The position numbers and the translations under genes were made by a program. Below are positions 50,669 to 55,589 of a stretch of DNA of 64,000 nucleotides, piece by piece (position 1 is the first letter of the stretch; every line of letters begins with the position of its first letter). The stretch comes from Pyrinomonas methylaliphatogenes (GTDB lineage: Bacteria; Acidobacteriota; Blastocatellia; Pyrinomonadales; Pyrinomonadaceae), in assembly GCF_000820845.2 (NCBI RefSeq), contig NZ_CBXV010000002.1, positions 124,001 through 188,000 on the forward strand. Direction: 5' to 3'. A model generated the notes under the pieces. It made no database searches. It worked only from the letters and a program-made list of their open reading frames with translations, and had not been told where the DNA came from.

Positions 50669-50682
50669 CAACCTTTCGGTTG
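50669..50682. promoter_or_regulatory. SufR-type operator CAAC-N6-GTTG
   Basis: The perfect palindrome CAACCTTTCGGTTG at 50669-50682 fits the CAAC-N6-GTTG pattern described for SufR in cyanobacteria. It overlaps the first three bases of the -35 box by its last three bases, so a bound repressor would block RNA polymerase. It lies 35 bp before the GTG of the regulator-like gene. Confidence 0.75.
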
Positions 50683-50708
50683 ACAAAACCTTTTCGGCGA
50701 TCTTAACA
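50680..50708 (+). promoter_or_regulatory. Promoter of sufR-like operon (leaderless)
   Basis: Consensus -35 TTGACA at 50680-50685 is followed after 17 bp by TTAACA (50703-50708), or TAACAT after 18. The start of transcription would be near 50715-50717, so the GTG at 50717 lies at or next to the 5' end of the RNA: a leaderless or nearly leaderless message. Confidence 0.6.
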
Positions 50709-50716
50709 TTGAGCCG

Positions 50717-51406
50717 GTGTTCTCCGTTCCGACGAACAATCCGCTCGGGCGATCGCGCGGCGAAATCGTGCGGCTACTGCGCAAACGAGAGTCAGCGCGA
50801 GCCGACGAACTGGCGCGCGCGCTCGGTCTGTCGAAGCAGTGCGTGCGCAAACATCTCGACGCGCTCGAACGCGACGGTTACGTGTGTCACGCGATCGAGC
50901 GCAATGGGCGCGGGCGACCGGTCCATCGCTATCGCTTGACGACGCAGGCGAACGAATTATTCCCGAAGCGCTACGAACTACTCTCTCAGGCTCTGCTCGA
51001 GCAAGTCGAAGCTTTATGGGGGACGGATGGGCTGAACGCGGTCTTTTGCCGCTGTGCCGAGGAGGTCATCCGCCGTTTGCGTCCGCAGCTCGAGGGCTTA
51101 GGCTTCGACGCGCGAGTGAGGAAGCTCGCCCAGTTGCTTGACGGCCTTGGATACGAAGCTCGCGCCGAAAAGCAACCCGACGGCTCTTACGTTTTGACTG
51201 AGTGGAACTGCCCAGTGACGGAGGTTGCGCGCGAGTACCGCCAGCTTTGCGACCGAGAATTGATCGTGTATCGCGAGCTCCTCGGGGCCGAGGTTTTTCG
51301 CGAAACTCGCATCGTTGCGGGAGGGGCGAGTTGTCTGTACCGCGTCCTTCGTCCTCGAACGGAGAAGAGGCGGGCGAAGCGCAAACGCGCGCACACCACA
51401 ATCTAG
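50717..51406 (+). CDS. sufR: SufR-like Fe-S responsive transcriptional regulator
   Basis: A 229-residue regulator with an N-terminal winged helix-turn-helix (about 10-75, ELARALGLSKQCVRKHLDALE) and a C-terminal domain with three cysteines at 165, 178 and 206 (C-X12-C-X27-C). This matches the SufR family, which binds a 4Fe-4S cluster and represses suf-type genes when the cluster is present. The last 20 residues are very basic. The GTG start leaves 12 residues before the HTH. The neighbours (mrp, A-type carrier, ferredoxin) are Fe-S related. Confidence 0.85.
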   Translation: MFSVPTNNPLGRSRGEIVRLLRKRESARADELARALGLSKQCVRKHLDALERDGYVCHAIERNGRGRPVHRYRLTTQANELFPKRYELLSQALLEQVEALWGTDGLNAVFCRCAEEVIRRLRPQLEGLGFDARVRKLAQLLDGLGYEARAEKQPDGSYVLTEWNCPVTEVAREYRQLCDRELIVYRELLGAEVFRETRIVAGGASCLYRVLRPRTEKRRAKRKRAHTTI

Positions 51407-52538: not shown

Positions 52539-52614
52539 AAGTGTGGTACAAAAGTTCTGCCATCATCGATCCGATGAGCGACGACGAAGTCATACTTTAA
52601 GGAGAAGGTTAGAG

Positions 52615-52971
52615 ATGTCTGTGACAACGGCTCCGACTTTGACGATCAACATCACCGACAAGGCGGCTGAAGAGATCAAGAAGTTCATGGCTGGCGAAGA
52701 GGATCTGCCCGAGACCGCAGGTCTTCGCGTGCGCGTCGTGCCGGGCGGTTGCTCCGGTTTCCAGTACAGCCTGAACATCGAAGAGGATTCGCGCCAAGGC
52801 GATTACGTGCTCGACTCGAACGGCGTGCGCCTCTTCGTCGACATGTTCAGCGCGCAGTACTTGAACGGCGTCGAGATCGACTACGTCTCGACGGTGATGG
52901 GTTCCGGTTTCACCTTCAGGAATCCGAACGCGACGGGCACCTGCGGTTGCGGCTCATCCTTTACCGTCTAA
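52615..52971 (+). CDS. A-type Fe-S cluster carrier (IscA/ErpA/SufA family)
   Basis: HesB/IscA-family carrier, 118 residues from the ATG at 52615, with AAGGAGAAGG upstream. The three cluster cysteines are Cys46 in PGGCSGFQY and Cys110 and Cys112 in TCGCGSSF. The family accepts clusters from the scaffold and delivers them to targets. ErpA, IscA and SufA cannot be told apart by sequence alone. It is co-directional with sufR and mrp, 109 bp from mrp. Confidence 0.94.
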   Translation: MSVTTAPTLTINITDKAAEEIKKFMAGEEDLPETAGLRVRVVPGGCSGFQYSLNIEEDSRQGDYVLDSNGVRLFVDMFSAQYLNGVEIDYVSTVMGSGFTFRNPNATGTCGCGSSFTV

Positions 52972-53090
52972 CTGCCATCGCAGGACGATTGGCTGTCAGC
53001 GTAGCGCGTCGGTTCGGCGTGCTACGCTGATCGTATGTCAAGCCTTAAGTTCTTCACCTTACGCGAAGACAAGAAGAGAGGATTTTGGCG

Positions 53091-53423
53091 ATGCCGATCA
53101 TTCAGGCGGAGACGGCGACGGGGATTAAAACGTTCGAAGCCGAAACCGGACGCAAGCTCGTGCTCGCGCTCGAAGATAACGGGATAGACATCCTTCATCG
53201 TTGCGGAGGGAACGCTCGTTGTACGACCTGCCGCGTCGAAATTCTGGGAGGCGAGGCGGGCGAAATGGGCGAAGCCGAGCGCAATCGCCTCGCGCGAGAG
53301 CAGGAACTCGCGCCCAATATACGCCTATCCTGTCAGATCCGCATCCAAGGCGATCTGAGGTTGCGCGTCATCAATCAAGCGAGCGTGCGCAATCTCGATC
53401 CCGGACCGCGCCCTGCCGATTGA
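53091..53423 (+). CDS. 2Fe-2S ferredoxin, adrenodoxin-like
   Basis: A 110-residue 2Fe-2S ferredoxin from the ATG at 53091, which has AGAGAGGA 8-15 bp upstream. The cluster ligands are Cys38, Cys44, Cys47 and Cys81 (C-X5-C-X2-C...C), the adrenodoxin/Isc-type spacing. The C-terminal tail has additional basic residues. Such ferredoxins reduce Fe-S assembly or cytochrome P450-like partners. It closes the Fe-S block with sufR, mrp and the A-type carrier. Confidence 0.92.
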   Translation: MPIIQAETATGIKTFEAETGRKLVLALEDNGIDILHRCGGNARCTTCRVEILGGEAGEMGEAERNRLAREQELAPNIRLSCQIRIQGDLRLRVINQASVRNLDPGPRPAD

Positions 53424-53996: not shown

Positions 53997-54608
53997 ATGG
54001 CGCACGAACTACCGCCCTTGCCATATCCTTATGACGCACTCGAACCTTACATCGACGCACAAACGATGCAGCTTCATCACGACAAACATCACGCCGCTTA
54101 CGTCAATAACCTGAACGCCGCTTTGGAGAAATACCCTGAACTTCAAAACAAGAGCGCCGAAGATTTGATCAAGGATCTGAACAGCGTGCCTGAGGAGATC
54201 CGAACTGCGGTGCGCAACAACGGCGGCGGTCATGTCAACCACACGATGTTTTGGCAGATCATGAAGCCGAACGGCGGCGGCGAGCCGACCGGTCCGATCG
54301 CCGAAGCGATCAAGCGGACGTTCGGCAGCTTCGCTGAGTTCAAGAAGCAGTTCAACGATGCTGGGATGAAACGCTTCGGCTCAGGTTGGGTCTGGCTCAT
54401 CAGATCGAAGGATGGTCAACTGCAAATCACCTCGACGCCGAACCAAGACAATCCGCTCATGGAAGGGCATTACCCGATCATGGGCAACGACGTATGGGAG
54501 CACGCTTACTACTTGAAGTATCGCAACCGTCGCAACGAGTATTTGGAGGCGTGGTGGAACGTCGTCAACTGGGATGAGATCAATCGCCGTTTCGAACAAG
54601 CACGTTGA
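53997..54608 (+). CDS. Superoxide dismutase (Fe/Mn), cytoplasmic
   Basis: Fe/Mn superoxide dismutase, 203 residues, no signal peptide. The metal ligands are His27, His82, Asp165 and His169 in [17 protein letters not shown] and [16 protein letters not shown] and [11 protein letters not shown] look like the Fe/Mn cambialistic group; the metal cannot be told with confidence. It has a promoter and a strong SD. A second copy with a signal sequence follows 225 bp downstream, with a 190-bp identical block. Confidence 0.95.
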
Positions 54609-54833: not shown

Positions 54834-55589
54834 ATGAACAAGCGCGAGTTCTTGCGTTACGCCCTGTATGCTCCGGCAGCGGTCGCACTCTGGACCAGAA
54901 CGAGCTATAGTTCGCCTGCAGCGGTTATAAGCGTCTCCCAACAAACGGCCTCCGGGCCGCACAAACTTCCGCCACTGCCCTACGAATACAACGCGCTCGA
55001 ACCCTACATCGACACCGAAACGATGCAGCTTCATCACGACAAACATCACGCCGCTTACGTCAATAACCTGAACGCGGCGATCGCGAAACATCCTGAGCTA
55101 AGCAATCGTTCAGCGGAAGACTTGATCCGCAATCTTCAAAGCGTCCCCGCCGACATCAGAGAGCAGGTGCGCAACAACGGCGGCGGTCATGTCAACCACA
55201 CGATGTTTTGGCAGATCATGAAGCCGAACGGCGGCGGCGAGCCGACCGGTCCGATCGCCGAAGCGATCAAGCGGACGTTCGGCAGCTTCGCTGAGTTCAA
55301 GAAGCAGTTCAACGATGCTGGGATGAAACGCTTCGGCTCAGGTTGGGTCTGGCTCGTGCGCGATCGCGCCGGGCGCCTACAGATCATTTCGACGCCCAAT
55401 CAGGATAGCCCCTTGACCCAAGGACTCTATCCGATCATGGGCAACGACGTATGGGAGCACGCTTACTACCTCAAGTACCAGAATCGTCGCAACGAGTATT
55501 TGGAGGCGTGGTGGAACGTCGTCAACTGGGATGAGATCAATCGCCGCTTCGAAACGGCGACTTCTCAACGAACCACGCGCCGAACCTGA
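54834..55589 (+). CDS. Superoxide dismutase (Fe/Mn), exported copy
   Basis: A 251-residue Fe/Mn superoxide dismutase with an extra N-terminal 40 residues. The start is [20 protein letters not shown]; the KRxFL pattern resembles a Tat signal with a K-R in place of the twin arginine, so export by Tat is possible. A strong AAAGGAGGTG precedes the ATG. The ligands shift by 40: His67, His122, Asp205, His209. A 190-bp block (55166-55355) is identical to the first copy. Confidence 0.93.

Follow-up and report, generated by a model that had tools for sequence, protein, structure and literature searches.

The closest described counterparts of the promoter analysed here belong to SufR, a regulator of Fe-S cluster genes. 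Cyanobacterial SufR (sll0088 type) is a winged-helix protein with C-terminal cysteines that controls sufBCDS. Its operator, which also occurs at its own promoter, is CAAC-N6-GTTG, and a review gives its cysteine pattern as C-X12-C-X13-C-X14-C (PMC8593673). In cyanobacterial work, the holo form represses and the apo form does not (PMC13421787). The SufR of Streptomyces avermitilis binds CAAC-N6-GTTG at a site that is reported in a later paper to overlap the -10 box and the transcription start (PMC11995493), and Corynebacterium glutamicum has a near copy of the motif (PMC11995493). Mycobacterium tuberculosis has a SufR repressor, Rv1460, in which C203, C216, and C244 are all needed for function (PMC6034842). 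In these actinobacteria, sufR is the first gene of the operon that it controls (sufRBDCSU). Regulators of the Rrf2/IscR type also act at Fe-S operons but form an unrelated protein family. Judging by titles and abstracts, we found no paper describing SufR in Acidobacteria.

We consider it probable (about 0.78) that positions 50669-50717 of the window (the whole 64,000-nucleotide stretch that was analysed, from the soil bacterium Pyrinomonas methylaliphatogenes) are a promoter that is autoregulated, gives a leaderless mRNA, and serves the gene of a SufR-family repressor at the head of an Fe-S carrier operon, sufR-mrp-iscA/erpA-fdx. The observations behind this reading concern the site, its promoter geometry and conservation, synteny, the conserved cysteines, and a single clade of regulators. 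The features are as follows.

50669-50682, no strand assigned: inverted repeat CAACCTTTCGGTTG (CAACC-TTTC-GGTTG; arms CAACC and GGTTG, 4-nt loop), the proposed SufR-type operator
50680-50685, plus strand: -35 box TTGACA, 6/6 (sequence and promoter scan)
50704-50709, plus strand: -10 box TAACAT, 4/6, after an 18-nt spacer (promoter scan and comparison of orthologues)
50716-50717, plus strand: transcription start predicted from spacing, at the GTG or one base before it (leaderless mRNA)
50717-51406, plus strand: sufR-like gene, 229 aa, with an N-terminal winged helix and a C-terminal Cys domain (TIGR02702, Pfam HTH, alignment; structure model with pLDDT 80)
51209-51334, plus strand: codons of the invariant C165 (51209-51211), C178 (51248-51250), and C206 (51332-51334)
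51424-52506, plus strand: mrp/apbC, Fe-S carrier P-loop NTPase (PF10609, PF01883)
52543-52971, plus strand: A-type carrier of the iscA/erpA type, with ATG 52615 as the likelier start (TIGR00049, ErpA model)
53085-53423, plus strand: 2Fe-2S ferredoxin, fdx (PF00111)

The -35 box and the right arm of the palindrome have a TTG in common (50680-50682, the last bases of the repeat), confirming the overlap between CAAC-N6-GTTG and TTGACA described in the initial annotation. The GTG at 50717-50719 lies 7 nt past the -10 box and is the first start codon in its frame, which has an upstream TGA stop at 50681; no Shine-Dalgarno sequence precedes it. A promoter scan over 1.1 kb returned one site against 0.2 expected. 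When all 5081 start-codon trinucleotides of the window were screened for a -35 box matching in at least five of six positions, a TANNNT -10 box, and a start codon at leaderless spacing, GTG 50717 was the only one to have all three.

The bare motif CAAC-N6-GTTG is by itself uninformative. It occurs twice in the 64-kb window (0.37 expected), and the 3.79-Mb genome (3,788,560 bp in 16 contigs) has 50 sites where the reversed control gives 59, so we rejected it as a genome-wide regulon marker. The motif joined to the -35 box, CAACC-N4-GGTTGACA, is present as a single copy in the genome, exactly at the 50669 site. Six other sites of the form CAACC-N4-GGTTG were detected, five within open reading frames and one (C4:536239) under no ORF.

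By far the best NCBIfam match of the sufR-like product is TIGR02702 (SufR_cyano, E=6e-27), at 94.6 bits where the curated cut-off is 178.8. This cut-off seems to be tuned to cyanobacteria, as the model name suggests, because only one of 14 control genomes exceeded it, though both C. glutamicum, with its experimentally studied SufR, and a cyanobacterium were among those matching the model. An N-terminal winged helix-turn-helix was identified with Pfam (HTH_5, HTH_11, and HTH_24) and in the predicted structure, with residues 40-52 as the recognition helix, and the product has no Rrf2 match. A fold search with the model returned generic winged-helix matches and weak ones to TRAPP Bet3-like proteins, AxCesD, and H-NOX. 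Our scan of named genomes for SufR relatives returned Acidobacteriota only, and cyanobacterial and actinobacterial SufR proteins were compared through their published patterns. The initial annotation was right in calling the gene SufR-like but had given it the cyanobacterial cysteine spacing. C165, C178, and C206, which are invariant across the 23 aligned orthologues, are instead arranged as C-X12-C-X27-C, the spacing of C203/C216/C244 in M. tuberculosis Rv1460; there is no extra cysteine, and the residue 14 positions after C178, where the third cysteine of the cyanobacterial pattern would be expected from spacing, is Glu192.

The Fe-S block that this gene was said to head is also real, although it consists of carrier genes (mrp, iscA/erpA, and fdx) and not of suf genes. 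mrp begins 17 nt after sufR and is preceded by a Shine-Dalgarno-like AAGGGAG. The gaps after mrp and after iscA are each about 110 nt and may leave room for internal promoters; the extent of the operon past mrp is a prediction, in which the ferredoxin gene is likely included. Beyond fdx come the gene of a Tmem14 protein and a pair of neighbouring genes for similar Fe/Mn superoxide dismutases (53997-54608 and 54834-55589), the second of which encodes an N-terminal extension resembling a signal peptide. A different contig carries the suf operon (rrf2-sufB-sufC-sufD-sufS-sufU), which is headed by an Rrf2-type gene; none of the CAAC-N6-GTTG sites listed for the genome is near it.

We searched the proteins of 162 genomes from the class, in which relatives are mostly metagenome-assembled, for orthologues. 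Of those obtained, 31 (window included), from five families, have mrp adjacent downstream and co-directional; further on, iscA is conserved in most families and fdx in the family of Pyrinomonas itself. In the tree, a branch with support 92/89 sets the 31 mrp-linked regulators apart from the rest. The -35 box is TTGACA in 30 of them and TTGACC in the remaining one, and most carry TATCAT, TAGCAT, or a similar sequence at the -10 position. The distance from the -35 box to the start codon (GTG or ATG, with one TTG) is 35-40 nt in all 31; for L038, the GTG at 36, which aligns with relatives, was counted as the likely start and not the CTG at 30. No Shine-Dalgarno-like sequence was found ahead of sufR in any of the 31. 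This constant spacing backs the earlier proposal that transcription starts at the GTG and that the mRNA is leaderless.

The palindrome has a narrower distribution than the promoter. Among the nine members of the Pyrinomonas family (window included), CAAC-N6-GTTG at the sufR promoter is perfect in eight and has one mismatch in the ninth. The arms hardly vary in this family: mean pairwise identity is 96% for the left arm, 47% for the loop, and 31% for the upstream DNA. Most half-sites in family f7 read [ACT]AAC and GTTG, and the left outer base is usually not C. In the Chloracidobacterium-like sister family (f2), the -35 box and the spacing are retained and an AT-rich sequence replaces the palindrome; its variable, low-complexity inverted repeats do not amount to a defined operator that we would claim. 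In f2, f8, and f9, where CAAC-N6-GTTG is lost or degenerate, the regulator, the promoter, and mrp are still present. Conservation in relatives, the check proposed at the outset, thus holds for the Pyrinomonas family and largely for f7 but is not universal. Ten class members have mrp without an upstream sufR, and at mrp in these the palindrome is absent, except for one chance-like 7/8 match 274 nt upstream. In two loci without sufR (L163 and L166), mrp seems to follow directly on promoter-like sequence and is possibly leaderless. Conservation within the family, absence where sufR is absent, and uniqueness in the genome are comparative evidence for the suggestion in the initial annotation of a SufR-type operator with autoregulation. 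Within the recognition helix, Cys42 (codon 50840-50842) is kept in the families with AACC/GGTT-type sites, whereas f2 has Ser or Gly at this position; this change tracks the f2 site difference in a single lineage and is possibly a coincidence.

Other SufR-like genes were detected in the genome and in the phylum. The same genome encodes a second, very divergent SufR-like paralogue (L086, 1672-2328; G000:C2:40.2-40.8 kb), which is divergently oriented from a gene that by eye looks like ribA (GTP cyclohydrolase II); upstream of it is a perfect AAGTCAA-N8-TTGACTT repeat containing a -35-like TTGAC. Three paralogues within the Pyrinomonas family (L056, L057, and L059) have a TTGACTTTGTMAAG-like palindromic sequence just upstream, over TTGAC, which reads CTTGACTTTGTCAAG in L057. 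In two loci of family f4 (L112 and L113), sufR and iscA-mrp are divergently oriented, and between them lies AGGCAA-N4-TTGCCT, a different half-site. Elsewhere in the phylum, SufR-like proteins are encoded divergently from sufB or from iscA-mrp, and the family therefore appears to serve both branches.

By analogy with characterised SufR proteins, which provide our model for the cluster, DNA binding, direction of regulation, and signal, a dimer of the SufR-like protein would bind both half-sites of 50669-50682. The overlap of operator and -35 box suggests repression by steric exclusion: with the right half-site over the -35 box, the bound repressor would keep sigma-70 RNA polymerase away. Since the regulator is the first gene of the operon, its repression would be negative autoregulation. 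When clusters are plentiful, one would be held by C165, C178, and C206 and repression would follow; under oxidative stress or iron shortage, the cluster would be lost, the regulator would leave the DNA, and both carriers and regulator would be made. The spacing further predicts an mRNA whose 5' end is at or next to the GTG, in which case sufR would be translated without a Shine-Dalgarno sequence because the message begins there, and mrp would use its own.

Other readings were weighed as well. The palindrome might be the operator of another regulator, such as the Rrf2-type protein heading suf, with the SufR-like protein not its ligand; that Rrf2-type gene and the divergent paralogue supply candidates within the genome. 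We find this improbable, as the site lies directly at sufR in 9/9 family members, matches the known SufR consensus (PMC8593673, PMC11995493), and is missing from the ten mrp-bearing relatives without sufR. It is more improbable still that the repeat lies beside a strong, conserved promoter by chance, with selection acting on the -35 box, the -10 box, and the start alone. The bare motif is indeed not enriched genome-wide and f2 retains the promoter without the palindrome, but the left arm, which belongs to none of the promoter elements, is nevertheless conserved far above the loop and the upstream DNA.

We rejected a role as an intrinsic terminator on the minus strand (CAACCGAAAGGTTG then TTTTATTCTT), to which we assign almost no weight: the repeat was listed by the terminator scan, but its stem has just five pairs, no minus-strand gene ends there, and relatives vary the loop and break the T-run while keeping the arms. 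A last alternative keeps operator and repressor as proposed and differs in the mRNA, which would have a short leader or another start. The -10 box, matching at only four positions, would allow this; the constant 35-40 nt between -35 box and start codon and the lack of Shine-Dalgarno-like sequences in the 31 genes, together with the prediction of leaderless genes for Acidobacteria among other phyla (PMC3160421), make it an unlikely variant.

Taking the autoregulated, leaderless sufR promoter as the preferred reading, the locus shares with cyanobacterial SufR the winged helix, the C-terminal cysteines, CAAC-N6-GTTG at its own promoter, and the linkage to Fe-S genes. It differs in scoring below the TIGR02702 cut-off, in its cysteine pattern, and in heading a same-strand mrp-iscA-fdx series where the cyanobacterial protein controls sufBCDS. 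With actinobacterial SufR it has in common the first position in the operon, the cysteine spacing of Rv1460, and an operator identical to that reported for S. avermitilis, where the site covers the -10 box and the transcription start and not, as in Pyrinomonas, the -35 box; the actinobacterial operon is a suf operon. Like Rrf2/IscR-type proteins, one of which is encoded at the suf operon of this genome, it is an Fe-S regulator at an Fe-S operon. The pairing of SufR with CAAC-N6-GTTG outside cyanobacteria is not new, being known from S. avermitilis and as a near match from Corynebacterium (PMC11995493). What differs here is the phylum, the placement over the -35 box, and a target of Fe-S carriers instead of suf.

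We tentatively raise the possibility that this class of Acidobacteriota has split its Fe-S control, with SUF synthesis behind an Rrf2-type regulator and delivery by Mrp, A-type carrier, and ferredoxin under a SufR-family sensor, and that the operator has been rewired between families (AACC/GGTT in f1 and f7, AT-rich in f2, AGGCAA-N4-TTGCCT in f4 with its divergently oriented sufR and iscA-mrp), alongside the replacement of Cys42 by Ser or Gly in f2. On the preferred reading of the promoter itself, the SufR autoregulatory circuit extends from cyanobacteria and actinobacteria to the Acidobacteriota, with a shared operator, the actinobacterial cysteine spacing, and carrier genes in place of SUF. 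Such a circuit makes it testable whether cells sense the demand for cluster delivery apart from cluster synthesis, and the related promoters would provide a clean series for operator evolution.
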